Positions 1,449-16,935 of a stretch of 29,650 nt of DNA are shown in pieces. The stretch is from a virus. Position 1 is the first letter of the stretch. The number at the start of each line of letters is the position of its first letter. Below the pieces are notes generated by a model that was not told where the DNA came from, did no database searches, and worked only from the letters and a program-made list of their open reading frames with translations. Both the position numbers and the translations under genes were made by a program. The stretch covers positions 1 through 29,650 of IMG/VR virus record IMGVR_UViG_3300015202_000037. The stretch is one strand, 5' to 3'.

Positions 1449-3985
1449 GTTGTGATCCCCACAATCTCGATGCTGTCGCCAGAGGCGTTAGTGGTTAGCG
1501 TAAGTGTTGATCCCAATATAGCCAGCTGTGCAATAGTAAACCTCAGGCCATTGATAAAGACACTAAACTCAGTAAGCGTCAAGTCGGAATAAGGGAGTGT
1601 AATACTTTGTGATGAGCCTGTACCTGTAGCAGTGACATTCCAAGTAGTAACGCCTGAGCCCGAAGTTGAAGTAGTAATGCTCGACCCTGTAGGGGGTGTA
1701 CCTGAACCCACAGCATTGGCTGCTACTACAAAGTAAGTGTAGGCTGTATTAGGCGAAGCCGATGAGTCAGTATAGGTACTTGTCGTAGAACTTCCTACTT
1801 TAATCGAGGAAGAGAAAGACGCGCCGAGACCGGGGGCGCGGTATATTGAATAAGAAGCTACGTTATCGTTAGTCGAGTTAGGTGTCCAGGTTATCAACGC
1901 GTGGCTAGAGCCCGCAGTTATCGATACACCCGTAACCGTGGAAGGTACGCCGCCCGTTCCCGTGCCAAAGGCCGCACCCGACGGGGTGACCGTGTAAACA
2001 GCACAAGTCGATATATCTTGAAGCCCTTGGCCATAAGTATTGAAACTTTGAAACTTCAAATAAAGTGTTTTACCTATATAAGCGGGAGGCAAAGCATACT
2101 TGAAGATATTCTCATCAAGCCGGGCAAACAATACTCCTGACGCGTGAGCTACGGGTGCTACATTACCTTGACCTCGATATAAGTTTGTAAGGCCATAAGT
2201 GTATGATCCTGTCAAGGTTGCAATCTCATAACTCAGGTATTCGCCATCACAATAAAGCTGTGTGACACCCGCAGCAGCATCAGTACCTGAAGCCGCGCTG
2301 GTCAATGTTGCACCGGACTCTAGCACCGTTACCGCCAAGGTATTGGTAGTATCGGGATTAGCACCAGTGTAAGAAGCAAGAGCAGCAGTCAATTTGCCCA
2401 TTCGGGCAACCTTAAATTGCTCACCCAAATCCTGATAAGTAGTACCATCTGTGGATAGGAATACGTGGTATCCGCCCCAAGACTCATCGAACGTCGTACC
2501 ATCACCCCCGGATACTGCACACCACACAGCGGGTATGTTGCTCGTGATTGAAGAAGGAGGTTCCCAAATAATTGGCAGATTAACGGGCCCCGCAAGTATC
2601 TCTGTATTTTGATTATTGCCTATTACCGCCGGCGCAGTCATCGTCCCCACAGCGCTCGTGGTGGGCTTAAACTCATCCGCGGTGATTTGGAAGCTATCAT
2701 CATCTTGTTCTTCAATATCGTTGACTCGACAAAAGAAAGTACCGAACTCGCGGTCCGTAACTTCCAAAATGTCCATTGCCTCGATACGCGAAAAACATAC
2801 GGGAACCTTAAATACATAAGTATTTCGGGTATATGCGATACGTTGACCATACAGCGTTATCATAATTGCTGCCACAGCCGGGTTAGCTATTTCGGTGCCT
2901 TGAATACCCGAGCCCGTTTTCAGCCCGAATTGATTAACCAGCGCTTGATCTCGCCACTCAACGGGGAGTGAGTTGTAGCTATTCTCTCGGTTGTTGATCG
3001 TGATGACTTGAGAGTTATAAGCATCGGCAGGATCGATACGATCTAGCTTTACTGGCGGGCTATCCATCAAGTAATCGTTGAGAACTAGCGAATACACCAC
3101 GGGGGCGTCAGGAAGGTAAGTTACGCCATTGCCCGTAATCGTATCAGTCGAGTAAGGGATAACCTTGAAAGAATACCCCGTCCATACAATCGCGCAATTG
3201 GTCATGTCCATCCAGCGTTTAATCGCATCCGACCCCGACTCTTGGGCGGTAATAACGGGGGACATACCAAATCCCACAGCTTGGCACCAGGTCTGAAACG
3301 CACTGTCACCAGTGGTTAAAGCCGCGGACGTACTAAAGAAATTATCCAGCGTCACCGCATTCTGTGGTCCACCAACAACCCCAAACAAGGGGCTATTTAT
3401 ATACAGATCTACGGCTAAAGCTATATCAGCATCACCTCCTGCAGTCCACTTGTATATCGGGATCGTTGAACCATTACCATCATTAGTACGTTGCCCACCG
3501 CTGGGTTGAGCCCAAGGGGCTGTATTATATAGCAACCCTTGAACCTCGAATGAAAACTGGCTTAAGGTATTGCTACCCCCTAAGTTGTAGTTAGCCACGT
3601 CCACGTGGGCGATATTAGCATAGCCCAACGCTTGGCTAGCATGCTTTGAAGTTAACCAACCCCAAGGAAGCTGCGGCTTAGTGCCCTTGAATAGGGTAAA
3701 AGGATAATAGTCACCCCGCCAAGTACCATCTTTCCATAAAGCGTCGACTCCGTGGATTTCTCCCCAGCATAGTCCGAGCTGAAAGGATCCGGAGTAAGAA
3801 TACTGCGTACCTCCCAATCCTTTACCCGAGCCACCCGCATGCTTTTGAAAGTCTCCTTGCCAAATGATATTTGGCGCAACCCGGTTTTTTCCCATACAGA
3901 TCGTTATGGGTACTTGGCTCGAGCTCGTTTGAGTTGCTAGCCCCACATATTGAGGCTGAGCTTTATGGCCGAATAAAAAGCTCAC
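1445..3985 (-). CDS. Tail hub / host-specificity protein (GTA/lambda J-like) with fibronectin III domain
   Basis: Large virion protein of 846 residues, probably the central tail-tip (baseplate hub) protein. The N-terminal 100 residues (QVPITI, RVAPNIIWQGDF, then LGLCWGEIHGV) match the opening of many phage tail-tip proteins. The middle part has LTNLYRGQGN followed by HASGVLFARLDENIF, as in GTA-type and J-like hub proteins. Residues about 683-773 form a fibronectin type III domain (ITWTPNS, YSIYRAPG, YTYFVVAANAVG), followed by a serine/threonine/glycine linker and a small beta-rich C-terminal domain. Start: GTG at 3985, seven bases after GGAGGA and overlapping the preceding stop as GTGA; a TTG five codons upstream has no comparable ribosome site. 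It sits last in the DUF2460, DUF2163, NlpC series, the usual hub position. Confidence 0.82.
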   Translation of the reverse strand: MSFLFGHKAQPQYVGLATQTSSSQVPITICMGKNRVAPNIIWQGDFQKHAGGSGKGLGGTQYSYSGSFQLGLCWGEIHGVDALWKDGTWRGDYYPFTLFKGTKPQLPWGWLTSKHASQALGYANIAHVDVANYNLGGSNTLSQFSFEVQGLLYNTAPWAQPSGGQRTNDGNGSTIPIYKWTAGGDADIALAVDLYINSPLFGVVGGPQNAVTLDNFFSTSAALTTGDSAFQTWCQAVGFGMSPVITAQESGSDAIKRWMDMTNCAIVWTGYSFKVIPYSTDTITGNGVTYLPDAPVVYSLVLNDYLMDSPPVKLDRIDPADAYNSQVITINNRENSYNSLPVEWRDQALVNQFGLKTGSGIQGTEIANPAVAAIMITLYGQRIAYTRNTYVFKVPVCFSRIEAMDILEVTDREFGTFFCRVNDIEEQDDDSFQITADEFKPTTSAVGTMTAPAVIGNNQNTEILAGPVNLPIIWEPPSSITSNIPAVWCAVSGGDGTTFDESWGGYHVFLSTDGTTYQDLGEQFKVARMGKLTAALASYTGANPDTTNTLAVTVLESGATLTSAASGTDAAAGVTQLYCDGEYLSYEIATLTGSYTYGLTNLYRGQGNVAPVAHASGVLFARLDENIFKYALPPAYIGKTLYLKFQSFNTYGQGLQDISTCAVYTVTPSGAAFGTGTGGVPSTVTGVSITAGSSHALITWTPNSTNDNVASYSIYRAPGLGASFSSSIKVGSSTTSTYTDSSASPNTAYTYFVVAANAVGSGTPPTGSSITTSTSGSGVTTWNVTATGTGSSQSITLPYSDLTLTEFSVFINGLRFTIAQLAILGSTLTLTTNASGDSIEIVGITT

Positions 3986-4452
3986 TTCGGTTTCCTCCAA
4001 AACGAGTAACGGCGGATCGGTAAATCCGTAATCATAGAGTTACCGACTAATTGAGTTTCTTCAACCATACGAGCCGGAAGACTTGCATGAATTATAAAAG
4101 GCCACCTAGTCACGATTGCGCCGTGGCTAAATGTATGACCGACTCGAAAAACGATAACATCCCCTGGATCGGCAATAAAATCTTGCGGTAATCCTTTCGG
4201 ATGATCGCTGATCATCCCCATGTAAGCTTCGATTACTTCAAGGTATTTTTCTTCCTTGCGGTGAAGATGCCAGTCATTATTGTAGATACCGAGGTCAAAC
4301 CAGTCCGCCACCTTCGCACCCGCGAATGACTCAAGAATAAGATAAGCGCAATCAACGCCCGCTCCTTTAATCCGAGCTCGGTGATGATACCTTGTACCCA
4401 TCCAAGTGCGAGCTTCCGCAACGACAGCGGCGCGTTCTTCATCCTCGGTCAT
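3982..4452 (-). CDS. NlpC/P60-family peptidase, tail-tip peptidoglycan hydrolase
   Basis: A 156-residue cysteine peptidase-like protein of the NlpC/P60 fold. The likely catalytic triad is visible: Cys35 in GVDCAYLIL, His110 in GHTFSHGAIV and a polar third residue, His122, in IIHASLP. The block PGDVIVF before the histidine is typical of the family. In gene transfer agents and related phages this protein sits in the tail tip and cuts peptidoglycan peptide cross-links during DNA entry. The position here, between the DUF2163 protein and the hub, fits that role. The ATG overlaps the upstream stop by one base (TAATG), and its own stop overlaps the hub start, so all three are probably translated together. 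The motif has DCAYL where many relatives have DCSGL. Confidence 0.88.
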   Translation of the reverse strand: MTEDEERAAVVAEARTWMGTRYHHRARIKGAGVDCAYLILESFAGAKVADWFDLGIYNNDWHLHRKEEKYLEVIEAYMGMISDHPKGLPQDFIADPGDVIVFRVGHTFSHGAIVTRWPFIIHASLPARMVEETQLVGNSMITDLPIRRYSFWRKPK

Positions 4453-5354
4453 TAGTAAGCCACCTCAGAAACGGGAATATAAGGAAAGCCCATAAAGTGA
4501 TTGGCCTTATCGACACCCCACAAGCAGTTGGCGAATATGCGTTGGCAATTAGGATAAAACTTGATCGGGGTCCCCGCCGCGGGAGTAAAGTCAAGGGGGT
4601 ATATCAATTTAGCGGATACGCCGGGGGTTACTCGAAGGATTGTTCGGGTTCGATCCACACTATCACTTCCTTCGAGAATAACTACACCCATGGCGAAGCT
4701 ACCCGTAATACCGGCCCAGTTTATTATCGATGCTGTTGATCCTGCCTCCACAAGAACATTTTGCATAAAATCTTCCGGGTTAATACCGCAGCCCGTATCA
4801 CCGAAACTGTGAACACACTGCGCAATCCACAATGCCCGCGGCGATTGAACAGCGAATAAAACCATGTCTGATTTCACGCTAAGAGTGGCCGTCAGTACGC
4901 CTACTTCGGTAAGCGATGATGCTCGGCCGCCAAACATTGACATACCGAACACCCAGGGAGCTCCCCAGGCCGGCGCGAAGAACCGGTCGCGTCGTACTTT
5001 AGCGCCATCGAGCCTACCGAGCTGCGCCGCCTGAGGCAGCGTGAGTATCCCTTGCCACAACTTATTATCGCGCGTGTAGCCCAGCTTTACTTGTTGCTCA
5101 TCAACATCCGTGCCAACGCTGGTCTTATACTTCATTCCTTCAATGGTTATGGCATGTGCGTAAAAAGGTACTGGGCCACTAGTGGTGCCGTCTAGAGGGA
5201 CCGCGTTCACGTTTATCGGGGCAGCAGTCCACCTCATAACATCGCCAATCATGGGGATGATGGTATAACAGTCCGCGTAAACGAATTGACGAGAAGCCAA
5301 CAAGGCCTCCGCATCACCTGTGGTATATCCGGGCTGGGCATGGACAGGCTTCAC
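4452..5354 (-). CDS. DUF2163 / phage BR0599-family tail assembly protein
   Basis: A 300-residue protein of the family found between DUF2460 and NlpC/P60 proteins in gene transfer agents and many siphoviruses; it is thought to be a tail-tip hub component. The N-terminal part (Y.DCYTIIPM, VNAVPLDGTTSGPVPFY, ITIEGMKYK) corresponds to the DUF2163 half. The C-terminal part carries the family's cysteine pattern: Cys residues in QCVHSFGDTGCG and NCQRIFANC, then the ending HFMGFPYIP. These cysteines resemble a metal- or disulfide-bound cluster, but that is inference. The start overlaps the end of the DUF2460 gene by four bases (ATGA-type), consistent with coupled translation. Confidence 0.88.
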   Translation of the reverse strand: MKPVHAQPGYTTGDAEALLASRQFVYADCYTIIPMIGDVMRWTAAPINVNAVPLDGTTSGPVPFYAHAITIEGMKYKTSVGTDVDEQQVKLGYTRDNKLWQGILTLPQAAQLGRLDGAKVRRDRFFAPAWGAPWVFGMSMFGGRASSLTEVGVLTATLSVKSDMVLFAVQSPRALWIAQCVHSFGDTGCGINPEDFMQNVLVEAGSTASIINWAGITGSFAMGVVILEGSDSVDRTRTILRVTPGVSAKLIYPLDFTPAAGTPIKFYPNCQRIFANCLWGVDKANHFMGFPYIPVSEVAY

Positions 5355-6439
5355 TGTAGGATGCTCCTAAACTTGCACTCATTCAACGACCACAGCTTAT
5401 CATAGAACTTTTCGTAGTCTTGCTGATCATCGCTAAACCGGCAGACGTAATAATATTGGCCGCTGAAATAAGTAGGCATAGAGCCGGGAGCGGTCGCAAG
5501 AACAATCCTGTTTGGCAAGGTGAGTGTAAAATCCGTTCCTTGATTTAATACCCATAGGTAAGAAATCTTTACTGACTCATCATGGTTTGCCGGGCTGAAT
5601 GTATATACCCCGGCGGTAACGGAGTACTCATTGACGTTGGGAGGCCCCGTAACCTTATTGAACTTAATTAGCCCTTGATATACGCTAACGTCTTGATACC
5701 ACACAGGCGTTGTCGTGGTAATTGTAAAAGGGCCTGTAGTCGGGATAGTTTGCGTAAGGTCGTGTTGCTGATAAACATTAAAAGAGTTGGCCATATCGAC
5801 TTGGCCGACGGGCTCAACAAACCCTCCCAGTGTTCGCGTCGCCAAGAATGTAGAAGTACTATTATTATAGCTTACACAAAGACTTTCCTCGGCTAAGTAA
5901 TCATCGGGGTCTTTGAATAGGAAAGAGTTTCCTGATCCTTGACATTTAAGAAAAAAACCTACCATAGTATGCAGCGCGTCATTCTCGGCTTTATCGGTCA
6001 AAAACTCATAGGTCAATTCATAGTCCCACGTGGGGTAGGCCATCATCGCGTATCGAACTTCAAAGCCGCCTGATGCAGTTGCGATATTGGTCTTAAACAT
6101 CGGCTTTTTGTGAACGGAATAACCCACGCCTCGAACGAGTGTGCTCGCAGGATCTTTACCCGCCGGGATTGAAACATCCGAAGCGGAGTTACCAAACCCG
6201 GGAAAAATCAGTGTAGTCATAACTTCCTCCGGCGGTGCAAGCATCAGCACCTCTTTATAGATAAAAGTAATACGGGTTAGTGGAGTACCCGCCTTAGTAA
6301 TCTCGTGAAAAGCAAAAGTTACGTGAGTAAGGGGAATACCCGCTTTGAATAGTTCAAAATAGGCAAAGTTAATCTGGGCTTTAGGTAAACCACCAAAGAC
6401 GTATTCACCAAAGCTGAAGGTTACGCGAGCATTAGCCAC
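5351..6439 (-). CDS. DUF2460 tail protein with N-terminal 17-residue repeats and inserted beta module
   Basis: A 362-residue tail protein. The DUF2460 core begins around residue 77 (LIFPGFGNSA) and shows family blocks: RGVGYSVHKKPMFKT, YPTWDYELTYEFL, ENDALHTMVGFFLKCQG and SFLFKDPDD. Two oddities stand out. First, residues 6-70 are a tandem array of about four 17-residue units (VTFSFGEYVFGG, INFAYFELFKAG, VTFAFHEITKAG, ITFIYKEVL). Second, residues 231-297 hold a beta-rich module shared with the tail-tube and connector proteins of this phage. DUF2460 proteins occupy the distal tail, next to the tape measure tip. The start is GTG at 6439 inside the end of the upstream gene, with a weak ribosome site, so it probably depends on coupling to that gene. 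Confidence 0.85.
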   Translation of the reverse strand: MANARVTFSFGEYVFGGLPKAQINFAYFELFKAGIPLTHVTFAFHEITKAGTPLTRITFIYKEVLMLAPPEEVMTTLIFPGFGNSASDVSIPAGKDPASTLVRGVGYSVHKKPMFKTNIATASGGFEVRYAMMAYPTWDYELTYEFLTDKAENDALHTMVGFFLKCQGSGNSFLFKDPDDYLAEESLCVSYNNSTSTFLATRTLGGFVEPVGQVDMANSFNVYQQHDLTQTIPTTGPFTITTTTPVWYQDVSVYQGLIKFNKVTGPPNVNEYSVTAGVYTFSPANHDESVKISYLWVLNQGTDFTLTLPNRIVLATAPGSMPTYFSGQYYYVCRFSDDQQDYEKFYDKLWSLNECKFRSILQ

Positions 6440-7541
6440 TGGGCGTCACAATCTCATAGCCTAGCTGAGCGGTATTTGCCGCATCGGCAAGCCATGCTAA
6501 TGAAGTGGAGGGGTCAATTTGACTAGTTACTTGAGCACCCGAATACATTTGGCTCAGATTTTCCGTGGGGCCGTTTACTTGCGTACTGCCTGATTTCAAA
6601 ATAGCCTGTATCGCCATTTGAGTAGCATCATCTTGACGAGCAACGATGCTGGTCTGTACGCCGAAGATCGTTGCGCTATCCACACCTGGGTTAAATCTAT
6701 AAAGATCATACTTACCTACACCCGCTGCATTGGCATTGTAGACGTAATTAACTTCATCTGCAAGAACGTCGTGAACGGATTGCCAACGACTAGCAGCGGG
6801 TGAAGTCCCGCCGATAGTAGAGTCTTGGTGATCGCCATCTGATGACGTAAGTGATCCCACAGATCGAGCGTTACCCAAAAAGGTATTCCAGGGAGAAACC
6901 CCCAGAGTATCACTATAATATATATCGTCAAGCCACATAACGGGAGCGCTATAGGTGGCGGCGGATATCATTATAAAAGCATCCATATTGGTAAAGCCTG
7001 AGCCTGCTCCACTACCCCAGGGGTTCCAGTTAGACATATTCCAAATTGTCTTTTGGTTTAACCTTAACTGAAACTCATTATGGATACCATTTAGCTTAAG
7101 CCGAACCTCCACAAAGTTCCAAGCATTAAACTCGAAGATACCTATGGGTGAAGTTAAAACCCTACCCGCACCCGACACGTTTACTACCGCGGTATTTAAC
7201 CCCCCAAATACCACACTAAGGATATTGCCATCTCCCGATCCCTGACCCTTGAAAGCTATACCAGGGCCTTCTCCTACGATGGGCCATTCAGCCATCTTAA
7301 ATGCGTAGCCCACAATAATTTCTGAGGGATTTGTGGGAACGGGCTTATACCAAGCTTGATAACCGTTATTACCACTATTACCATTACCCGAAACCATACT
7401 ATAGCCAAAACCGAAACGACCAACATCACGGCGTAATGGGAAAGGTCGAGCCCCTGGAACCCACTTACGATTGATGAATGCGGCGGACGCATCATCGCCG
7501 CCGGGGTGCCAATCAAAACTTTCCATGCCGAGCAAGGTCAT
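6432..7541 (-). CDS. Tail/virion protein with LamG-like (concanavalin-type) beta-sandwich
   Basis: A 369-residue protein placed between the tape measure and DUF2460 genes, so almost certainly virion-associated. The N-terminal 215 residues read like a jelly-roll sandwich. They include a glycine-rich start, GYAFKMAEWPIVGEGPGIAF, the block FNAWNFVEVRLKLNG, then MWLDDIYYSDTLG; the last two resemble the closing strands of LamG-type sugar-binding folds. The C-terminal half (from NTFLGNARSVG) resembles a tail-protein segment with DGDHQDSTIGG and a helix-rich end. It may be a surface decoration or accessory fibre of the distal tail; the function is inferred only from position and fold. ATG at 7541 follows AAGGA by eight bases. 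It overlaps the next gene by eight bases. Confidence 0.65.
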   Translation of the reverse strand: MTLLGMESFDWHPGGDDASAAFINRKWVPGARPFPLRRDVGRFGFGYSMVSGNGNSGNNGYQAWYKPVPTNPSEIIVGYAFKMAEWPIVGEGPGIAFKGQGSGDGNILSVVFGGLNTAVVNVSGAGRVLTSPIGIFEFNAWNFVEVRLKLNGIHNEFQLRLNQKTIWNMSNWNPWGSGAGSGFTNMDAFIMISAATYSAPVMWLDDIYYSDTLGVSPWNTFLGNARSVGSLTSSDGDHQDSTIGGTSPAASRWQSVHDVLADEVNYVYNANAAGVGKYDLYRFNPGVDSATIFGVQTSIVARQDDATQMAIQAILKSGSTQVNGPTENLSQMYSGAQVTSQIDPSTSLAWLADAANTAQLGYEIVTPSG

Positions 7542-7544
7542 CGA

Positions 7545-10500
7545 TCAGTTCCTTCTATTCAAGATAGTGCCATTACGATGCTCGTTATTTATCCACTTAC
7601 GGAAAGACTTACTCTGCGTTCGTAGCAACTGCTCGAGGTCGGCATTTTGGTGACTATGTTGTGGTTGAAAGTTAAAGGTATTAGAAATCGAATGTTCTCG
7701 GGCCGCCGAGCCGGCTGCCGATGCGGTATTGAAAACTTGATTACTTCCGGATGCTCGAAGGTTTGCGCGCAAGGGATTAGCCGCCCAAGCGGGCAAAACC
7801 ATCTCATCCTTGTGAAGCTCGGTCATTTGTCCATCGTAAGGAACTTGAACTTGACCTCCTTTCGCGGAAGCAAATGCCCCGAATGCCAGCACCGCAGCGA
7901 ACGTACCGGCAGCTGCAGCAGCTCCTAGCACAGGACCGATGATTGGTATTCCGGCTAGCGCCGCATACGCACCTGAAGCTGCCTTAGCGGCGTTTGCACC
8001 AATAGCCTTGATTGCTGTGATGAAGTTGATACCGCGTTCCTCAGCGGCACCGGCAACAACCGCGCCGACTCGAGCCTGTGTACCAACCACAGTGGACACA
8101 GTTTTGGCCGCCTCAGCTCCTGCGTGTGAGGCTACGTCAAGACCGGTAGAAGCGCGGGTAACGGTATCTTTGAAGATCAAGGTCTTAATCCAGTTGGTTA
8201 ACATCTTTGAGGCCATGTCAGTCCAAGTGGTTAATACGGTGAGCGCCATCCCTCGCATTGCAGCGGTGAAGTTGAACCCGTGCTGAATACCTGCGTTAAG
8301 CGATTGCTGAAGGTGAGAAGCCATGGCATCGTAAACTTTAGTCCACGTGGCATTCGTTGCACTACTTGCTTGCTGATTGGCTTTTTGATACGCGATCAAT
8401 CCCTTGCTGCGGATTTGATCCATTTTATCTTGGTGTATTTGCTCTTGCTGCTCAATCTGCTCGTTGATATTCTTGATGGAGTCTTTGCTAAGATTTTCTG
8501 TACGAAGTTGATCTTGAAAAGAAGCCACCCGCTTTTGGTTGATTGCTTCCTCGAGTTGTTGTTCATCCTGTATTTGCTCGACTACTAAGGCTCTTTTGGC
8601 TTCGGCATACTTGCGATCACTAATGATACCTTGCTCATGGCCATAGTCAAGCGCACCCCCTTTAAGGTCTTGACCCGTTTTCTTTTCTTCGCTCGCCCGA
8701 TCCACAGGCTTTTCAGAGTCTTTTTCTTTTTTCTCCATCATCTTGGTACGCTCGTCGGCTATTTTTCGCTGAGCATCGCGATAGGCTTTAGCAGCCTCTT
8801 GAAACTCTTTCGACTCCTCGTGCATCACAAACCGAACTTTAGCAAGGTATTTATCCCAAGCAGCTTCCTCAGCGGCCAAGTCACCCTTTGCTTCATCAAT
8901 CTTATTTTTTAACGCGGCAATATCATCGGAGTAATCAGACTTAGCGATCTTCTTACGTAGTCCAGCAATCTTAGCATCAATTGCCACGTAAGTAAGCGAT
9001 CCCGCTTTAGCAGTTGAAAGCTTTTTGGTCCAATAGTCAAGCTCAAACTGATCGGCGTCGGCAAAGTAATTTTTCTGCAAATTAAGCTGACGGTTCAAGT
9101 CTTCTTGCATCAACGATACTTCACTGGGACCTTTAGGCTTATGGCCTTTCTTAGGTATATCGCCCGCATCAAACTTTTTATCGATCCGAGCATCTTCAAT
9201 TTCAGGATGAGCTAAACGATACTTCATCTCTTTCCGGTGGTTCTCATCCGTCAAGGGGTTATCGAGAAGTTCCTGCGCTTCTAGCTTCCACTTATCTTTT
9301 TCTCTTTTTGCTTTTTCATGGGCAGTACGAGTAACTTTCTCTAGCTCGTCAAAATTCTTTTCAAGGTCATCGACCTGTTTGATTTGCGCACTCTTTCTAC
9401 CCTGATCGGCATCCGCGGCCATTTTACGCTGAATATCCAACTCTTCCTTTTGAAGTTTAGCTTTATAGGCAGTGTCTTGTCCAGGGTGGTACGTATTCTC
9501 TTGAGCAAGCAGCTGTCGAATATCCGCTAACCTTTTTGTGGGAGTTGCTGCTTTACCTATATCCTTCATGGCTTGCCACAGGTCGCCCATCGCAACAGCG
9601 GCATTGTGAGCAAACTGGCCAAGACCATTAAGCTCAACCTTTTCGGATTGAATAGCCGCGTTAAACTTATCGGACAACTCAGCTACGGCGGTTGTTCTAT
9701 CCCCCATTTCTTCTAACTTACGGATATGGTCTTCTTCTTCGGGAACCAGAAAGTGGAATTGATCTTGAAGTCGTTTCATCGCGGGGAGCGGGTCATCCGC
9801 CATCTTGATAAGCTCTTTAGTTATCTCCGCAGCTTTTTCACTGGATTGGTCAGATACAGTAGCAATAATCTCGCCCATGGTAATCATGGTTTGACCGGTA
9901 ACTCGCCCCGAGGCGGCTAGCTCGGTCAATGAGGCGGTTGCTGCACTTGCGCTGGTATGAGTTTTTTCTCCGATGCGCTTACCCGCTTCCTCCACTTGAT
10001 CGGCAGTCATCCCCGCATAGTGGCCCGTCATAGAAAGTGCTCGTTGAAGCTTAACCTGTTCAATACTTCCTTCATAAGCTGCGTAAGCAAGCGCGCCGAG
10101 CGAAACTACGACACCCGCAATAACTGCACCCATACCACTAAATACCACAGACATAGCTGCGCCTGTGGCGTCAGCGCCGGCTAATGCTTGACCAAGGATC
10201 ATCGCTGAGGAAGACATTCTCGTCCAGCGGTGCGCCAGTGCTTCGTGAACTAGGATCAAAGACTCGTAGGCTGCGCGATTGTTTATTGTATGCCCCGTAT
10301 TCGTCTTCAACGCCTGGCTAAGACCTTGCTCTGCGGCACTTACAGCATTTAACCGGGTCGTTTCATCAATATGGCCCGATGCCGCCAAGCCATTGGCCAT
10401 TTCCACAGCTTGGTTATATTTAACTTGGGCGGCGTAAGTTTTATCGAGTGAAGACTTTAGTCGTTCGGCTGAGGCTGCTCGCTGTTGCTCAGCGCGAGCG

Positions 10501-11555
10501 GCATCTTCTTGCGCTTTTTCAAGTTTACGCGCTTGTACTGAAGCTTTAGCATCTGCCTCTGCAGCTTTAGCGGTTGCAAGCGCAACTTTCTCTTCGGCAA
10601 TTGCAGCTTCCGCCGCAGTTCGTGCTTTTACTGCAGTTGCTTGGGCCAGTACTTCATCCGCTTGGGCTTGCTGTGCCGCAGCAGCAAGAGAAGCCTCCGC
10701 GGCGGAGACTTGCGCGGCTGAAAGAAGGGTCGCTGCTTCTGATGCCTGTATGTCGGCGGCGGTAACTTCAGCTGCGGCGGCCTTCGCGACTTCAGCTGCG
10801 GTTCTTTCTGCCGAAGCCGCACGGTTAGCCGCTTCTTGTCTAGTTGTAGATACGCGCTGAGTATTGCGAACACGCTGACTTGCAACGGTATCTTCAACTT
10901 GGGCAATTTTGAGCTGTATCGCTGCTTCCTCTACGGCTGCTGCTCGATCAGCCTCTAAAGTTGCGCGAGGAATGAACTGGCCTTGAGCATTGCGAGGTCG
11001 AGCGGGTAAAGTAAGTTTACTAGCTTCAGCAGCCGCAAGGCTATCTTTTGCTTCTTGTAATGCAAGTGAGCTACGCGCTTTAACTTGTCTAGCTTCATTA
11101 ACCGTAATACGGGCCTGTTCCGCTTCACGCTCTAGGGTCAAACGGCGGATATTCGCGCTAGTTGATTTTGCCGCGGTATCTTCGGCTCGATTACGCGCTT
11201 GTGAGGCGCGAGTCATGGCGGTTGCGGCTTCATTAGCTACCGCAGTTCCTTTAAGTTGCTCAGACGTTTGACGAGCAAGAGCTTCTCGAGCCTTCTCAAT
11301 GGATAAGGCATATTCTTTTTGTCCCAATACGCCTTTGCTCATCAGCATATCCAACTGGACAAGGGTATTGTTGTACTGGGTTTGAGCCGCATACATGGGA
11401 TCTAGTGATGACCGCAACTTCTTAAATGCTCGGTCAAGGTCACCCGCTTCTTGAGTAACCTTCTTGATAGCTGCAGCTGCTGCTTTTGAGCCTACCTCAA
11501 TATCGGTAGGATCAGCACCAATGCGGATATTAAGATTGTCATCATTGTTAGCCAT
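7545..11555 (-). CDS. Tail tape measure protein
   Basis: The largest gene (1336 residues) sets tail length and is ejected with the DNA. Residues about 100-440 are alanine-rich coiled coil. Residues 467-495 form a hydrophobic segment (MGAVIAGVVVSLGALAYAAY). Near the end is a second hydrophobic alanine/glycine stretch (GIPIIGPVLGAAAAAGTFAA) followed by KGGQVQVPYDG and ELHKDEMVLPA, a common tape-measure C-terminus. The phage tail-length motif LxSSLDxxYAAQxxYN occurs twice, at about residues 49-64 and 368-383, which suggests an internal duplication. A charged middle part (lysine/glutamate rich, 700-1050) is also helical. The ATG overlaps the chaperone T-frame stop by one base; a GTG one codon earlier is an alternative start. 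Confidence 0.93.
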   Translation of the reverse strand: MANNDDNLNIRIGADPTDIEVGSKAAAAAIKKVTQEAGDLDRAFKKLRSSLDPMYAAQTQYNNTLVQLDMLMSKGVLGQKEYALSIEKAREALARQTSEQLKGTAVANEAATAMTRASQARNRAEDTAAKSTSANIRRLTLEREAEQARITVNEARQVKARSSLALQEAKDSLAAAEASKLTLPARPRNAQGQFIPRATLEADRAAAVEEAAIQLKIAQVEDTVASQRVRNTQRVSTTRQEAANRAASAERTAAEVAKAAAAEVTAADIQASEAATLLSAAQVSAAEASLAAAAQQAQADEVLAQATAVKARTAAEAAIAEEKVALATAKAAEADAKASVQARKLEKAQEDAARAEQQRAASAERLKSSLDKTYAAQVKYNQAVEMANGLAASGHIDETTRLNAVSAAEQGLSQALKTNTGHTINNRAAYESLILVHEALAHRWTRMSSSAMILGQALAGADATGAAMSVVFSGMGAVIAGVVVSLGALAYAAYEGSIEQVKLQRALSMTGHYAGMTADQVEEAGKRIGEKTHTSASAATASLTELAASGRVTGQTMITMGEIIATVSDQSSEKAAEITKELIKMADDPLPAMKRLQDQFHFLVPEEEDHIRKLEEMGDRTTAVAELSDKFNAAIQSEKVELNGLGQFAHNAAVAMGDLWQAMKDIGKAATPTKRLADIRQLLAQENTYHPGQDTAYKAKLQKEELDIQRKMAADADQGRKSAQIKQVDDLEKNFDELEKVTRTAHEKAKREKDKWKLEAQELLDNPLTDENHRKEMKYRLAHPEIEDARIDKKFDAGDIPKKGHKPKGPSEVSLMQEDLNRQLNLQKNYFADADQFELDYWTKKLSTAKAGSLTYVAIDAKIAGLRKKIAKSDYSDDIAALKNKIDEAKGDLAAEEAAWDKYLAKVRFVMHEESKEFQEAAKAYRDAQRKIADERTKMMEKKEKDSEKPVDRASEEKKTGQDLKGGALDYGHEQGIISDRKYAEAKRALVVEQIQDEQQLEEAINQKRVASFQDQLRTENLSKDSIKNINEQIEQQEQIHQDKMDQIRSKGLIAYQKANQQASSATNATWTKVYDAMASHLQQSLNAGIQHGFNFTAAMRGMALTVLTTWTDMASKMLTNWIKTLIFKDTVTRASTGLDVASHAGAEAAKTVSTVVGTQARVGAVVAGAAEERGINFITAIKAIGANAAKAASGAYAALAGIPIIGPVLGAAAAAGTFAAVLAFGAFASAKGGQVQVPYDGQMTELHKDEMVLPAWAANPLRANLRASGSNQVFNTASAAGSAAREHSISNTFNFQPQHSHQNADLEQLLRTQSKSFRKWINNEHRNGTILNRRN

Positions 11556-11902
11556 CACATGATCATCCCGCCTGCGCCAGCCATTTTAAGTAGCTCGCTG
11601 AGGTCACTGCTTTGTTGGTTCTTACCTTTATTTTTCTTCTTGATAAGACCCAGGTAGCCAGCAACAGAAACATAGACCGGCGGACCATTATCAGACCACC
11701 ATTCAACCATCGCATAATACCGAGGAAGAGTCCAGCCCCGTTTCACCTTTATCCAACTACCGCCCTCACAGCCGGCAGCTACGAGCTCTGCGATGAACCG
11801 AGTACAGTCTCCGTCGAAAGACTCACCGCCTCCTTCGACGGAGGCGTGTCTTCCCCCTCGGGAGCCACCAGGCCGGCCTCCACAAGGATCTCGTCGATGC
11901 AA
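11555..11902 (-). CDS. Tail assembly chaperone T-frame, expressed as a G-T fusion by -1 frameshift
   Basis: This open frame overlaps the 3' part of the G-type gene in the -1 frame and ends at the tape measure start, the standard place of the lambda T frame. It has no convincing start codon of its own: the first possible start, TTG at 11902, lacks a ribosome site. It is therefore most likely reached by frameshifting at 11851-11857, giving a G-T fusion of about 214 residues (116 from G and 98 from T). The T-domain contains RGWTLPRYYAMVEWW and GPPVYVSVAGYLGL, typical of T-domains, then a lysine-rich tail (KKKNKGKN). The fusion is expected to bind the tape measure and recruit tail-tube subunits; it does not remain in the virion in lambda. 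Confidence 0.75.
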   Translation of the reverse strand: MHRRDPCGGRPGGSRGGRHASVEGGGESFDGDCTRFIAELVAAGCEGGSWIKVKRGWTLPRYYAMVEWWSDNGPPVYVSVAGYLGLIKKKNKGKNQQSSDLSELLKMAGAGGMIM

Positions 11903-12198
11903 TCTTTAAGTAGCGGAATTTCTCGAGCCTTAAGCCGGCGACGAAAAAAGTTGACCACTTCATCATGTACGGCATCTTCTTCTTCGAGAGAAGACTTGAC
12001 GTTATACCGGGCGGGATCAAAGTTTTCGCCATCCACAATGCCTGCGGCGATAATACGTAGTGCAGCGTTCGGGCCCCTCATGGGGTCGCCCGATACCGAA
12101 ATCATGGAAGCTTCTACGTAAGGCCAAGCCCGTTCAAGCGCCATAAAGGTTAATTCGGGAACCGTATACTCGACATTGCCGATTTTAATTTTTGCCAT
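11779..12198 (-). CDS. Tail assembly chaperone, G-type (short product)
   Basis: A 139-residue protein between the tail-tube and tape measure genes, where lambda G lies. It starts with MAKIKIGNVEYTVPELTFMALERAWP, an opening common to phage tail chaperones, and is mostly helical and acidic. ATG at 12198 follows AAGGGA by seven bases. Most ribosomes should stop at 11779, after a serine-rich end (VLGSSQSS). A minority should shift to -1 at codons 115-116 (GGG GAA) and continue into the T frame. It lies directly downstream of a strong stem-loop after the tail-tube gene, so its mRNA level is probably lower than that of the tube gene, as suits a catalytic assembly factor. Confidence 0.82.
   Translation of the reverse strand: MAKIKIGNVEYTVPELTFMALERAWPYVEASMISVSGDPMRGPNAALRIIAAGIVDGENFDPARYNVKSSLEEEDAVHDEVVNFFRRRLKAREIPLLKDCIDEILVEAGLVAPEGEDTPPSKEAVSLSTETVLGSSQSS
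11809..11857 (-). promoter_or_regulatory. Programmed -1 ribosomal frameshift signal
   Basis: Read on the minus strand: slippery heptamer GGGGGAA (11851-11857) in the G frame as GAG GGG GAA, then a 7-nt spacer (11844-11850), then a hairpin. The hairpin arms are 11831-11843 and 11809-11821: 13 consecutive pairs, one of them G-U, around a 9-nt loop. The glycine tRNA can re-pair perfectly on GGG after a -1 slip. The glutamate tRNA would re-pair on GGA with one G-U. The heptamer is not a strict X-XXY-YYZ type, so efficiency is uncertain, but spacing and structure fit. Confidence 0.68.
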
Positions 12199-12222
12199 TG
12201 GACTGTCCCTTCCTTAGGCTGT

Positions 12223-12263
12223 TAAATAACTGTGGGCGAGTACCTATTGATACCCGCCCACAG
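12223..12263 (-). terminator. Stem-loop terminator/attenuator after the tail-tube gene
   Basis: On the minus strand the arms 12251-12263 and 12230-12242 pair over 13 bp (CTGTGGGCGGGTA with TACTCGCCCACAG, one G-U) around an 8-nt loop, followed by TTATTTA. It lies seven bases past the tail-tube stop and before the chaperone gene. The T-rich run is interrupted, so partial read-through is likely, which the downstream tail genes would need. Confidence 0.7.
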
Positions 12264-12269
12264 GCTAGA

Positions 12270-13022
12270 TCAAAGGCCGCCGCCGTTAATCGAGGTAGTA
12301 GTGATACGGGCAACACGATTGTTGGCATCAGCAAAAGCTGAGCCCGACATTTCTGCCATCAAGTAGTCTTCCATCTTTAGCGGCAGGTTAAGCTTGTCCG
12401 TCACATTGCTGTAAAGGATCAAGGTGAAGGTTTTGCCCCCGTAGGTTTGCGACAGGATCAACTTGAACCGAGGAGTTGAGCCCATCAGCTGGTTGCCAAT
12501 TTCGAGGCTGCCTCCCGTCGAAGCAGACTCATACATGTAGTTGATCAAAACTCCCTTACCCGTATCAGCAGCGGCGAAAGTGTAGACGCCCGCCGCGACC
12601 GAATACTGGCCGGTGGTGGGTCCGCTGGCGACCTGTTTGAGCTGTGAGCCATCCGATGAGAAGGATACCCCCAGGTCTTGATAGAAGTTTGCCGCATGAG
12701 CAACAGAGATGGTATAAGGCCCCGTAGCCGGGATGCTGGCCGGCTCGTTAAGAACCTGAACAAGCTCATCGCCGGTGGTCTCGGTTTGACCGAAGAAAAG
12801 CGTATTGAAAGCCGTAACATCGATGTTGGCTGACTGGGCTTTCCATTCAACCTTCGTTTTGCCCCGGGCACTGTCCAGCGGGAACTGGTACTGACCGTAT
12901 AGCATCTTGATATCGCCGGCAAAGTCGACCGACACATCTTGAAGTGCACCGAAGCGCAGCGCGGCACCACCGCCAATGGGCGTCGCAAAGAGCTGCCCGG
13001 TGCCGAAAACATACTGACTCAT
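12270..13022 (-). CDS. Major tail tube protein
   Basis: A 250-residue protein upstream of the G/T chaperones and tape measure, the usual position of the tail tube subunit. The N-terminal part (GTGQLFATPIGG, FGALQDVSVDF, KMLYGQYQFPLD, KTKVEWKAQSA) matches tube proteins of other siphoviruses. Residues about 95-165 form an inserted beta module (IPATGPYTISVAHAANFYQD, then QYSVAAGVYTFAAADTGKG) that recurs in two other virion proteins here and probably projects from the tube surface. The C-terminal part (RFKLILSQTYGGKTFTLILY) closes the tube fold. ATG at 13022 is seven bases after AAGGAG; a TTG two codons upstream is less likely. A strong stem-loop follows the stop. Confidence 0.86.
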   Translation of the reverse strand: MSQYVFGTGQLFATPIGGGAALRFGALQDVSVDFAGDIKMLYGQYQFPLDSARGKTKVEWKAQSANIDVTAFNTLFFGQTETTGDELVQVLNEPASIPATGPYTISVAHAANFYQDLGVSFSSDGSQLKQVASGPTTGQYSVAAGVYTFAAADTGKGVLINYMYESASTGGSLEIGNQLMGSTPRFKLILSQTYGGKTFTLILYSNVTDKLNLPLKMEDYLMAEMSGSAFADANNRVARITTTSINGGGL

Positions 13023-13100
13023 TTTCAAGCTCCTTGTTTACCCAACGGGATCATCCCGCTTCCACAAACTGATTGCGCAGCCCCGGGTATGTGAAACCTA

Positions 13101-13568
13101 TTATGGCACTAATATCTTAATGGGAACAACTAGCATGGCTTGGCCGTCTATGTCCCCGGGATCTTTGAATACTTTGCCGCCTATATACAGGTGGTAAACC
13201 TTGCCACCAAGCGTATTTCGATTATCACGAAAGCCGGGGTCTGACGGCAAAGGTGCCAGTGTTCGCTCAACGGCATCAAGAATGAGGTTATTCTCAATAG
13301 CACCGGAAATAGAGGTATCTCGGGAAGTATCTTGAAAAATAATCCAGCTAACGGGGTACATCGCTTTATAAGGCAAGTTTGTTTTTTGCTGAAAGTCCTC
13401 ATCGTGCTCGGCTTGAAAACAAGAAGGCTGTTGAGCGGATACTACATCGGCAAATAACTTAACTCTACGGCTCATGGTTACAAATGAGTGGGTGGTGGTA
13501 TCAGCTCGTACCCAAGTAACTGTGGCCATTAAGGCGTAGACTGAGGTATAGATGTCTTCGCGGGTCAT
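13101..13568 (-). CDS. Probable tail terminator / tail completion protein
   Basis: A 155-residue protein in the slot between the HK97 gp10-like protein and the tail tube, where siphoviruses encode the tail terminator that caps the tube at the neck. The sequence starts with a helix (TREDIYTSVYALMATVTWV), then alternates strands (HSFVTMSRRVKLF, AMYPVSWIIFQDT) and ends with KVYHLYIGGKVFKDPGDIDG and a hydrophobic strand. This helix-then-sheet order fits the terminator fold, but I recognise no diagnostic motif, so the call rests mainly on gene order. ATG at 13568 overlaps the preceding stop (ATGA). Confidence 0.6.
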   Translation of the reverse strand: MTREDIYTSVYALMATVTWVRADTTTHSFVTMSRRVKLFADVVSAQQPSCFQAEHDEDFQQKTNLPYKAMYPVSWIIFQDTSRDTSISGAIENNLILDAVERTLAPLPSDPGFRDNRNTLGGKVYHLYIGGKVFKDPGDIDGQAMLVVPIKILVP

Positions 13569-14113
13569 CCCACATTCCTCATGTTTTGACGAATACCTTC
13601 TACCACCGCTTTCTGTATCGCCTTACCAATCTTCGGGCTAAACATGCGGTAAGCATCGCGCAAGTAATGCTGGCCGGGGATAGTCACGCTGGGCATGAAC
13701 ACATAAGCAAGAATAACTTTTTTACCCGCGGTGGCCCACTCAAATGCAAGCGCTTTACCTTCACGAGGCCTGATGATATGCGGCGGAATAATACCGCCAT
13801 CTTCTTGAATGCGGGCGTACGGGATAGAACCATCCACATAAATCACCGCTTCAAGACCATCGCTATCATACTCAATCTCGATGGCATCCCTAAGGTGACC
13901 GGCTGCACCACTATATTGTTTTTCTTTTGAACCGTACGTCTTACTGAGGCGTTCATCAATGTTATCGATGACTTGGTTCTTGAGTTCTTCCGCAAAGTAT
14001 TCGACCTTGCTTCGCACTAGATCTTTTACCATTTCGGGCATCTGATCAAGGTTCTCGAGGATCGATCGCTCACCAAGAACTTCAATGTCAAAGGTGTTTT
14101 TCCCGTAGGCCAT
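13565..14113 (-). CDS. HK97 gp10-like neck / head-tail joining protein
   Basis: A 182-residue protein between the connector and terminator genes. It resembles the HK97 gp10 family: an N-terminal strand (FDIEVLGERSILENLDQMPE), a long helix (VKDLVRSKVEYFAEELKNQV), the block GAAGHLRDAIEIEY, and a strand pair with YVDGSIPYARIQEDGG. It ends with HYLRDAYRMFSPKIGKAIQKAVVEGIRQ, the helix found at the end of this family. These proteins sit in the neck and help join head to tail. The ATG overlaps the upstream stop by one base (TGATG), and its own stop overlaps the next start, so the neck genes are tightly coupled. Confidence 0.75.
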   Translation of the reverse strand: MAYGKNTFDIEVLGERSILENLDQMPEMVKDLVRSKVEYFAEELKNQVIDNIDERLSKTYGSKEKQYSGAAGHLRDAIEIEYDSDGLEAVIYVDGSIPYARIQEDGGIIPPHIIRPREGKALAFEWATAGKKVILAYVFMPSVTIPGQHYLRDAYRMFSPKIGKAIQKAVVEGIRQNMRNVG

Positions 14114-14922
14114 CAGACAGGAACCACATTGCGGTAAGGCTGAATAAGAGCTTTGACCGTATCGCTAATATCATTGGTGGAAAAGCTGACCGTTTCTTGG
14201 CCACCTAGTGATTTGCTGTTTAGGCCGATACGCTCTTTCTTCTTGTACCATTCACCCACAATCTGAGTAACACCAAAGGCTACGTCCCAAGGAGCATAGT
14301 TATAAGCTATAACCAAGCTTGCATTTTCTTCCGCGGCGTTAAAGGTATAAGCACCCCAATCATCGACGTAGTATTCCCCCGCCGCGGGGGTTGAGTTGCT
14401 GGTTAGAACCATCGCAACCCCATTTTTCTTAACACCCATATCCGCGGTCCATTGACCTTTATCCTGGGGCGAGATTGTGGTCTGTTCATTCATTGCGAAG
14501 ATAAAATTGATGCTGGTCTGAAACCCGGCGACATAGATTATGCGACAAAATGCCCCAAGCCAAAAGCTGGAGCTATACAAATCGAGAGACTGGGGAGCAG
14601 AACGACTGTCGCCGCCGATAACATACCCGTTACTGGGTAGCCCTCCTTGCCCGATTATCGCGGGAGATATTAAGTTACCGCCAATCCCTAATTCTGTAAC
14701 CGACACCACGGGCCAGTTGCGTAAAAGCTGACAAGTTTTGCCATTTCCGCGAAAGCTTTGAGAATAGGTATTCACTTGCAAGCTATCACGGTTCATGTAG
14801 TTTAAGGCGAACTGAGAGGCTGCATCAATAATCCGAATAAGCTGGTCATCAGCCACGTTCGGGGTGTTGGCTAATAGCAGCCAGTCTTTGACTGCATGAA
14901 GTGTGGTCAGCCTCTCAGTCAT
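14113..14922 (-). CDS. Head-tail connector (gp6-like adaptor) with inserted beta module
   Basis: A 269-residue head-completion protein. The N-terminus (LTTLHAVKDWLLL, then DDQLIRIIDAASQFALNYMNR) is the helical start of gp6-like connectors that bind beneath the portal. The strand blocks SQSFRGNGKTCQLLRNWPV and LGAFCRIIYVAGF also fit that family. Residues about 147-208 (SPQDKGQWTADMGVKKNGV, then AAGEYYVDDWGAYTFNAAEE) are extra compared with a minimal connector and resemble the beta module of the tail-tube and DUF2460 proteins. The protein then returns to a connector-type helix (DVAFGVTQIVGEWYKKKERI). ATG at 14922 follows GAGGA by eight bases. Confidence 0.75.
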   Translation of the reverse strand: MTERLTTLHAVKDWLLLANTPNVADDQLIRIIDAASQFALNYMNRDSLQVNTYSQSFRGNGKTCQLLRNWPVVSVTELGIGGNLISPAIIGQGGLPSNGYVIGGDSRSAPQSLDLYSSSFWLGAFCRIIYVAGFQTSINFIFAMNEQTTISPQDKGQWTADMGVKKNGVAMVLTSNSTPAAGEYYVDDWGAYTFNAAEENASLVIAYNYAPWDVAFGVTQIVGEWYKKKERIGLNSKSLGGQETVSFSTNDISDTVKALIQPYRNVVPV

Positions 14923-15315: not shown

Positions 15316-16839
15316 TTAGTTCGAGCCAACATTCGTGATCAGCCCAAGTGAGGGCGGAAAGTAGTTCTGAAGCACTTCATCCGCATAGACGCCGTACTCA
15401 TACTTGCGGGTGCGCAACGGCCACTCGATCTGGTAGTATTCTTGACGAGTGCGGATCTGCACCACGTTGCCCACTCCTGAGACGGGGTAAGGCAATTTGT
15501 GGGTGGTGAACAAGATCATGCCGCCCGGCATATTCGGGTGGATGCGAACCTTCAGTACATTGGCGCCGTTCATGGAAAAGCGGTTCAGGTAGGTGGCGAT
15601 CATCACGCCCCCAACCATCATGCCTTGTTCCATGTTGACAACGATGCGGAAAGCACCGTTGGCATTGCCGGCCAAAACCTTGCGCGAGATTGAGAGCGCA
15701 AGATCGGACGACAGCCAAATCGTATCGGGAGACAGCTTATAGTTGTCCCAAAACGATTTTAGTGCGGCGTCAATCTCGACAATACCGCCCGCACCGTCGG
15801 CGGTGAGGCTAGCTGCATCGAGCGACTGGTAGTAAGCGTTGCTTCCCGCCTTGGCTGCCTGGGTAATCAAGCCGTCAAAGACGAGGTTATTTGCTGAGTT
15901 ATCAGCAGTACCCACAGAGGTGGCAGTTTGCGATCCAGAGCCGATCGGGTCAACAATGACCAGCCGGTTTACTGGGGTGATTGCACCCAAAGTTGCACCG
16001 CCCGCAGTTGCGCCCCAGAACCAGGCATAAGCAGACGCGCCGCGAACGGAAGCAACAGTTGCGATGATGCTTTCGACTGCACCGCCGCCGGCGAGAATAA
16101 CCGAAGCATCAACGCTGATCTGCCCCGATCCGCCGCCAAAGGTATCCGTCGAGCCATCCGCGTTGGTGCGGGTGACAAGGGTGGGAATACCGCCTGCGAC
16201 TGATGCGTTCAGAAAACCTTCAAGCGTCATTGCCACGCAACGAACGTGGAAAGTGCCGTTCGAAAGGTTACCCCCCGTGGTGGACCCGGTCAAGGAAGGG
16301 GTTGGGCAAATGCCGATAGGCACAGTACCATTGCCGCCCAAGATCAAAATCTCTTCGCCGAGCATCAAAGCCTCAAGGCCGACCTTAGCTGCAAGGGCAC
16401 GAATGTCCTCGAAGCCTTGTCCGGCGTACTGAGCTTCAAAGTCCACGTTGTCTTCGATGCCGATACCCTTGTAGGACGCCGCATAGTCCTGCGTGGTGAT
16501 CGCCATGACTGCGCCGCGATTACCGCCAGAGACACCAATACGGATGCCCGAAGTGTTGATCGCGGTGACAGCGCGCCAGTTGGCCTGAATACCGCCCTTA
16601 CCGGAAACGCGCGGCGTTTCGTTGCGCAAAGGCGTCAGAACTGGGTAAAGAAACTTGGCGCCGACTTCGAGGTCGTAGAAGGTAAGGCCAGAGGTTGCCG
16701 ATCCCGACTGCGAGAAAGTGCTCTTGGCGAGCGCGTCTGACATGGACGGGTTGGCAATCTGAGGCGACTGAGAAAGGGCTTTCATCAAGGCATCAATCGA
16801 TGCACCAGCAACGAGGCCCTGCGTGCGGTTCGGTTCCAT
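15316..16839 (-). CDS. Major capsid protein, HK97-type fold, with Ig-like insertion
   Basis: A 507-residue capsid subunit placed directly after the protease/scaffold gene. The N-terminal segment (TFYDLEVGAKFLYPVLTPLRNE, split here by a linker) leads into typical capsid blocks: GGIQANWRAVTAIN, and the spine-helix-like stretch FEDIRALAAKVGLEALMLGEE followed by ILGGNGT. Residues about 180-300 are rich in Gly/Ser/Thr and strands (SNGTFHVRCVAMTLEG, SVRGASAYAWFWGAT, NRLVIVDP), consistent with an immunoglobulin- or fibronectin-like domain inserted in the shell protein. The axial region resumes with IVEIDAALKSFWDNY and ends with a C-terminal arm (RTRQEYYQIEWPLRTRKYE). ATG at 16839 is five bases after AGGA; a GTG four codons upstream is rejected. 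Stem-loops lie on both sides of the gene. Confidence 0.88.
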   Translation of the reverse strand: MEPNRTQGLVAGASIDALMKALSQSPQIANPSMSDALAKSTFSQSGSATSGLTFYDLEVGAKFLYPVLTPLRNETPRVSGKGGIQANWRAVTAINTSGIRIGVSGGNRGAVMAITTQDYAASYKGIGIEDNVDFEAQYAGQGFEDIRALAAKVGLEALMLGEEILILGGNGTVPIGICPTPSLTGSTTGGNLSNGTFHVRCVAMTLEGFLNASVAGGIPTLVTRTNADGSTDTFGGGSGQISVDASVILAGGGAVESIIATVASVRGASAYAWFWGATAGGATLGAITPVNRLVIVDPIGSGSQTATSVGTADNSANNLVFDGLITQAAKAGSNAYYQSLDAASLTADGAGGIVEIDAALKSFWDNYKLSPDTIWLSSDLALSISRKVLAGNANGAFRIVVNMEQGMMVGGVMIATYLNRFSMNGANVLKVRIHPNMPGGMILFTTHKLPYPVSGVGNVVQIRTRQEYYQIEWPLRTRKYEYGVYADEVLQNYFPPSLGLITNVGSN

Positions 16840-16871
16840 TTTATTCCTCACTTTCGATGAGCAGGTGGTTT

Positions 16872-16895
16872 AACAAACCCATCGTCTCCGATGGG
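16872..16895 (-). terminator. Intrinsic terminator between protease and capsid genes
   Basis: On the minus strand CCCATCG (16889-16895), a GAGA tetraloop (16885-16888) and CGATGGG (16878-16884) form a perfect 7-bp hairpin, followed by TTTGTT (16872-16877). The GNRA loop and T-run are typical of intrinsic terminators. It lies about 40 bases downstream of the protease stop and about 30 bases before the capsid start. Confidence 0.72.
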
Positions 16896-16935
16896 GCATT
16901 CAGAAGGTTCCCGTCTCCGGTTACCTCGTTGCTTC

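Follow-up and report, generated by a model that had tools for sequence, protein, structure and literature searches.

In the 936 lactococcal phages, carbohydrate-binding modules are found in the neck, in a tube extension and in the distal tail protein (Dit), and fusion proteins bind host cells (excerpts of PMC6669499). The major tail protein of JBD30 carries an immunoglobulin-like (Ig-like) decoration domain at residues 88-175, which is placed between a helix (77-83) and a beta-sandwich (184-256) and protrudes tangentially from the disc (excerpts of PMC11445458). In the YSD1 tail tube, domain 2 forms an insert between helix 1 and core strand 4 (excerpts of PMC8718954). In RcGTA, the stopper, terminator, tube and distal tail proteins have a common tail-tube fold, and the stopper and terminator sit between the adaptor and the tube (excerpts of PMC7296036). 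In R4C, the adaptor has an Ig-like domain and the Dit bears an insertion that faces outward; the authors of that work proposed sugar binding for several outward domains (excerpts of PMC10276861). Here we analyzed a viral window, i.e., the whole stretch of 29,650 nucleotides of the IMG/VR record IMGVR_UViG_3300015202_000037, in which a module of about 70 residues recurs in three virion proteins, all encoded, like every gene of the window named below, on the minus strand. These are the tail tube protein (12270-13022, 250 amino acids from the ATG at 13022; module at residues 96-165, 12528-12737), the gp6-like head-tail connector or adaptor (14113-14922, 269 amino acids; module at residues ~145-210, 14293-14490), and a DUF2460 protein (5351-6439, 362 amino acids, with N-terminal repeats; module at residues ~231-297, 5549-5749), which is the distal tail protein.

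To compare the three copies, pairwise and profile alignments were used. The tube and DUF2460 copies reached a Smith-Waterman score of 120, while the maximum of 500 shuffles was 63. The connector copy, which a preliminary description of the locus had called the more diverged one, scored 53 and 63, each reached by 2 of 500 shuffles; pairwise alignment was insufficient as sole proof for this copy, and profiles decided. The tube's own family, phrog_8234 (unnamed, 255 positions), matched the tube at 5e-55, the connector at residues 144-210 (6.6e-8) and the DUF2460 protein at residues 228-296 (0.0049), always with the same profile stretch (~102-175) for the module. Moreover, separately built module profiles aligned in hhalign over 70-73 columns at 99.8% (tube with connector), 99.9% (tube with DUF2460) and 99.7% (connector with DUF2460) probability, and all carrier-specific profiles aligned at 99.5-99.9% over about 70 columns. 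In the control alignments to the N- and C-terminal parts of the tube core, the C-terminal part and helices of the connector, the JBD30 decoration domain and the Chi tube, the probability was 0.1-1.4%, and with the connector attachment domain it was 0.5-8.5%. The relation of one module in three proteins, as the preliminary description had proposed it, was thus borne out, and its boundaries were right to within a few residues. Its statement that the carriers have different folds failed for the tube and the distal tail protein: their RcGTA counterparts share the tail-tube fold, and DUF2460 corresponds to the RcGTA Dit family. Indeed, Pfam PF09343 matched the DUF2460 protein with 77.9 bits (gathering cut-off 30.4) in two stretches interrupted by the module, and the family profile (alignment A6) matched the Dit of RcGTA (6tba, 2.3e-18) and of R4C (8gtc, 1.7e-17). 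Homology of the module to the native DUF2460 insertion was unsupported (profile probability 8-20%). Separately, this native insertion aligned with the connector attachment domain at 67% over 33 columns, a possible second shared domain.

An iterated hidden Markov model (HMM) of the module, run over all frames of the first 16 loci and the window, gave 35 matches, all in homologues of the tube, connector and DUF2460 proteins. When 126 loci plus the window were covered, with L001 and L002 omitted as copies of the latter, there were 212 matches in 210 frames, comprising 122 tubes, 67 connectors, 14 DUF2460 proteins and 7 others, and no stopper- or terminator-type frame was among the carriers. Judged from their N-terminal sequences, the seven others are mostly megatron-like tip proteins, with one hub-like protein; these rare copies were absent from the preliminary description. 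Of 76 selected copies, 71 entered the module alignment (A7); those omitted were two from L003 and three short tip or hub pieces. Scanned singly, 70 of the 71 copies had phrog_8234 as their sole match in PHROGs. None of the Pfam and NCBIfam families was matched by more than one of the 71, and no copy matched Big_2, I-set, FN3 or another named Pfam or NCBIfam Ig family at an expectation value (E) of 0.01 or below. Searches of PDB sequences with the module and with the tube profile gave chance-level matches only, and no published description of the module was found in the literature searched (listings, abstracts and passages). By these matches, the module is a domain present in the searched annotation libraries only inside one tube family of unknown function.

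In the connector and the distal tail protein, relatives with an empty site were found. The DUF2460 protein of locus L006 aligned to residues 3-225 of the window protein and then to residues 298-361, with two residues between. The distance between the DUF2460 flanks was 76-85 residues in the 12 rows with the module and mostly 2-37 in the 75 rows without it (outliers -11, -1, 117, and 227). In the connector it was 71-83 residues in the 44 rows with the module, 4-6 in 27 of the 28 others and 23 in one. Among frames with both flanks, the module was present in 64 of 100 connectors, 14 of 100 DUF2460 proteins and 120 of 121 tubes. After removal of duplicate contigs, the connector carried it in 57 groups and lacked it in 34. 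The DUF2460 protein carried it in 13 groups, in all of which the connector and tube copies were also present (13/13), and most genomes had no distal-tail copy. A connector tree built without the module columns (72 rows) required at least 5 changes of presence and absence. In the DUF2460 tree, all 12 carriers fell inside a group of 14, with the non-carriers L006 and L056 nested among them; support was low for this group (43) and 85-95 for the inner branches with L006 and L056. Such nesting fits one gain followed by clean losses in the distal tail protein, and several gains are also possible. As judged from these alignments, the module of both proteins is an optional, cleanly bounded insertion, in agreement with the earlier view of an independent unit, which therefore holds for at least two of the three carriers.

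The tube behaved differently. Because the earlier searches had used a pattern inside the module, the tube search was repeated with the N-terminal third only. Among the 80 loci obtained (the best of 315), 78 tubes carried the module and the remaining 2 ended at a contig edge, i.e., it was present in 78 of the 78 that were long enough. In the same loci the connector carried it in only 13 of 71. The tube of L046 (5628-6491), the one exception among the 121 tubes with both flanks, was considered as a module-free form and rejected, as its middle part lies on the opposite strand, probably through an assembly inversion.

To place the module on the virion, AlphaFold2 models of the tube and the connector were made from alignments of 75 tubes and 72 connectors. 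The alignments A4, A5, and A6 contained 74 of 97, 71 of 85, and 49 of 78 listed relatives, respectively, each with the window protein. The tube model had a mean predicted local distance difference test score (pLDDT) of 79.7, and the module was its best-predicted part (94-97 over residues 91-160). The connector model had a mean pLDDT of 95.0, with 95 in the module. In both models the elements of the module followed one another in the same order: a short and then a long strand, two further strands, a one-turn helix and, at the end, another long strand. The closest solved fold to the tube was the SPR tail tube (8xkn; Z 14.6, root-mean-square deviation (rmsd) 4.1, 222 residues aligned), and the alignment covered the module. 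YSD1 (6xgr) was among the best matches (Z 13.1, rmsd 9.2), and many insert-free tail tubes matched at Z 9-12; the modeled tube thus has the siphophage tail tube fold of a beta-sandwich plus a helix. The model placed the tube module (residues 91-165) between a helix (69-77) and a core strand (186-194), which is the site used in JBD30 and YSD1, between helix 1 and core strand 4. Since this site equals that of the JBD30 decoration domain, the tube module is very likely on the outside of the virion, as far as the model goes.

The connector, which also matched Pfam PF05135 (28.2 bits, cut-off 21.2), had a connector fold, with the head completion protein of T5/DT57C (Z 11.5) and the RcGTA adaptor (Z 10.0) as matches. 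Its module follows the beta attachment domain and continues directly into the tube domain's first long helix. Taken alone (134-210), the module matched baseplate parts as well as domains of the Ig-like and pilin types at Z 5-7, which is suggestive only, and a BFVD search with the connector model gave no match naming the module. For the distal tail protein, the insertion site corresponds to a hairpin around residue 140 of the R4C Dit (8gtc), in the half to which we assign the outward insertion domain of that Dit; excerpts of PMC10276861 describe this domain as protruding and are without its residue limits. The module would face outward in the connector and the distal tail protein as well.

The JBD30 decoration domain (8rk3) shares with the module its site and, as predicted here, a beta-sandwich and a position on the outer face, but no sequence relation was detectable (hhalign 0.2-0.7% with four module profiles). 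JBD30 also differs in that the domain is in the tube, the adaptor is a helical bundle, and the Dit bears oligosaccharide-binding-type domains (excerpts of PMC11445458). For YSD1/Chi domain 2 and the inserted domain of SPR, the whole-chain fold match includes the module, and no sequence relation was found with Chi (profile) or any PDB chain. The tail of RcGTA and R4C shares with this phage a homologous Dit, a megatron-like protein and the adaptor fold, whereas the RcGTA adaptor and the R4C tube are without the module, as seen when their chains of 195 and 130 residues, respectively, were aligned by fold. The closest parallel was the 936 phages, in which BppA-like modules occur in the neck passage structure, the tail protein extension and the evolved Dit, where the module is an internal insertion and optional in many members, as here (excerpts of PMC6669499). 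The 936 tube, however, has a C-terminal extension made by frameshift instead of an internal fixed insertion, the 936 modules differ from the present one, which has no Pfam match, and binding was demonstrated there while it is proposed by analogy here.

To investigate how the module moved and changed, its copies were compared within and between genomes. The carrier profiles, the module tree, and the within-genome and close-pair comparisons used module matches of at least 35 bits without identical copies, and another match set omitted matches below 38 bits. In the tree of 184 copies, which is poorly resolved with its 71 columns, the labels tube, connector and DUF2460 needed 4, 8 and 5 changes, compared with 58.5, 49.5 and 10.8 in shuffles. 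For 162 of 163 modules of the tube, 66 of 70 of the connector and 9 of 11 of the distal tail protein, the nearest neighbor came from the same protein in a different phage. Among pairs that are not independent of each other, here and in all pair comparisons below, identity in the same genome and in different genomes was 0.412 and 0.404 for tube and connector (n = 56), 0.439 and 0.420 for tube and distal tail (n = 12), and 0.359 and 0.360 for connector and distal tail (n = 12); concerted evolution of the copies in one genome was thus marginal at best. Because the copies group by carrier and those of one genome hardly converge, the spread of the module between proteins is, on the sequence comparisons, old. 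Of the shuffling put forward in the preliminary description, recent exchange between the three proteins was thus unsupported; what stood was exchange within each of them.

Within each carrier the module changed fast. Among close pairs, the module exceeded the flanks in non-synonymous divergence (dN) in 204 of 248 cases for the tube (mean 0.143 vs. 0.058) and in 25 of 29 for the connector (0.160 vs. 0.059), the mean dN of the module being 2.5-2.7 times that of the flanks. In the connector, synonymous divergence (dS) was also higher in 25 of the 29 pairs (0.628 vs. 0.351). In the connectors of L064 and L065, identity fell to 0.38-0.82 in four 60-base windows over the module and the preceding linker, while it was 0.92-1.00 in all windows on either side. 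The tubes of L057 and L058 showed a milder dip, 0.75-0.95 in windows over and just before the module. As read from identity windows, dN and dS, the module alone seems to diverge or to be replaced within its own carrier between near-identical phages. In the 13 genomes with all three copies (module matches of at least 30 bits), the tube module was the fastest part, with an identity of 0.572 compared with 0.759 and 0.653 for the core parts. Among the distant tubes, module identity was nearly independent of core identity, with bin means of 0.49-0.61 for core identities of 0.2-0.8. In our reading, the framework of the module is strongly constrained and its faces change quickly, with exchange contributing.

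Taken together, we somewhat favor the reading of the module as a small, outward-facing beta-sandwich of the Ig-like type, a decoration or adhesion domain of an unnamed family used as in the 936 lactococcal phages. It would sit on the outer face of the tail rings. In the tube of this lineage it is a fixed part, inserted where other siphophages carry a decoration domain, and each ring would bear six of them if the tube is a hexamer as in related phages. The connector ring of the neck and the distal-tail ring of the tip would have gained their copies long ago, on a few occasions, and tip and hub proteins would rarely have done so as well. Each copy would since have evolved with its own protein, its sequence turning over much faster than the carrier, and part of this turnover would be replacement of only the module between close relatives. 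The module may then provide contacts of low affinity and high copy number to a target outside the virion, most likely polymers of the host envelope, so that neck, shaft and tip would jointly keep the phage at the cell surface. A module fixed in the tube is compatible with both this and a structural role; its optional presence in the other two proteins, its outward site in the tube and its rapid turnover in connector and tube favor contact with something outside.

Several observations weigh against adhesion. The universal presence in the tube (78/78) would equally fit a role in assembly, and the inserted domain 2 of YSD1 stabilizes the tube ring (excerpts of PMC8718954). The copies within a genome show no convergence to a single sequence, so that one shared ligand is unsupported, and the common binding partner suggested in the preliminary description stays a conjecture. 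The dS of the tube module is not generally raised (higher in 92 of 192 pairs). Furthermore, among 75 distant tubes the identity of the module (0.535) exceeded that of the core parts (0.459 and 0.403), possibly through structural constraint, and the Z values of 5-7 for the module alone may reflect a mere common arrangement.

The structural explanation that follows from some of these points is rather unlikely in our estimate, though it survives best among the alternatives. According to it, the module clamps neighboring subunits of the ring as domain 2 of YSD1 does and is needed for tube stability, and the copies in the connector and distal tail protein stiffen their rings. The fixation in the tube, the rank of YSD1 among the best fold matches and the about 50% module identity that distant tubes keep whatever their core identity all agree with it. 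Against a clamp of this kind, the module is optional in two carriers, changes faster than the core among close relatives and is replaced singly. Moreover, the tail-tube fold is possible without it: the R4C tube (8gtb, 130 residues), one of the fold relatives that work without a module, aligned on both sides of it (Z 10.5, 125 residues).

It is improbable that the modules act as a staple over neck, shaft and tip by binding to one another or to a single decoration protein of the virion. Every genome group with a distal-tail copy also had connector and tube copies, which speaks for this idea, but excess likeness within a genome was absent for connector and distal tail, negligible for tube and connector and slight for tube and distal tail (n = 12), the distal-tail copy is missing from most genomes, and no frame of the stopper or terminator type, which lie between adaptor and tube in RcGTA, carried the module. 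Escape from host defense, in which sensing of virion proteins (as DSR2 senses the SPR tail tube) would drive module variation, is also improbable: the SPR tube is the closest solved fold, with an alignment covering the module, and amino-acid change in the module is in excess, but the same excess occurs in the connector, for which no trigger role is known.

Returning to the favored adhesion-type domain, a wider proposal can be made tentatively, with a good deal of doubt. The unnamed family might make the whole tail, from the neck through the tube rings to the distal ring, a multivalent adhesin, in which the tube copy would be ancestral and obligatory and the others accessory, and the module would be renewed as an allelic cassette in ring proteins that are stable in all other parts, so that binding could change without disturbing assembly.

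The distribution of the lineage was also analyzed. Relatives of the tube were found in 7 of 50,697 annotated phage records (Acinetobacter, Brevundimonas, and Pseudomonas), and searches of the annotated phages with the connector or DUF2460 copy gave no match. The cultured Brevundimonas phage Strzyga has the module in all three proteins, i.e., connector, tube and distal tail protein. Metagenomes yielded 478 relatives at the search threshold, the best of which provided the 80 loci of the relatives search; the lineage is thus common there and rare among cultured phages. Tube relatives were present on 37 bacterial genome contigs, by title mostly alphaproteobacterial metagenome-assembled genomes and isolates. 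In five whole host genomes, the module occurred only in one or two frames of prophage tube or connector size. Its presence in host proteins was rejected for the genomes covered, as there was nothing beyond such frames in these five and no match in 296 of 297 genomes of one order, in which the starting genome was the sole carrier.

The window also codes for a terminase (20420-22222), a portal (18789-20420) and a tape measure, and its tail tip is RcGTA-like. The hub protein of the same tip (4452-5354, phiJL001 Gp84-like; PF09931, 72.3 bits) and the megatron-like tail-tip protein (1445-4000; PF23666 Rcc01698_C) are without the module. The end of the latter (1445-2150) contains an FN3 domain (PF00041, residues 688-771) and a further beta-rich stretch, which presumably resembles common tail-fiber modules. 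Upstream of the packaging genes, at 25764-26678, an ATP-dependent DNA ligase (PF01068, PF14743) is encoded. In the DUF2460 protein, the first ~75 residues (6215-6439) form a tandem repeat with a best period of 17 and a self-score of 103, compared with a maximum of 23 in 1000 shuffles; repeats of a similar kind precede the DUF2460 part in L016, L006, and L003. Some relatives have two consecutive DUF2460 genes, the first fused to a long N-terminal part (15443-17791 and 17764-18387 in L008; 15536-17923 and 17866-18519 in L011).

Decoration domains are common on siphophage tails, and their purpose is mostly unclear. In this lineage three ring proteins of a single virion carry members of one sequence family, which points to a domain that is unrecognized as such in the annotation libraries searched and buried in phrog_8234. 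Nature supplies pairs with and without the module, such as the distal tail proteins of L006 and L056 nested among carriers, as well as allele differences between near-identical phages, such as L064 and L065. With these, the question of whether decoration domains serve adhesion or assembly becomes directly testable.

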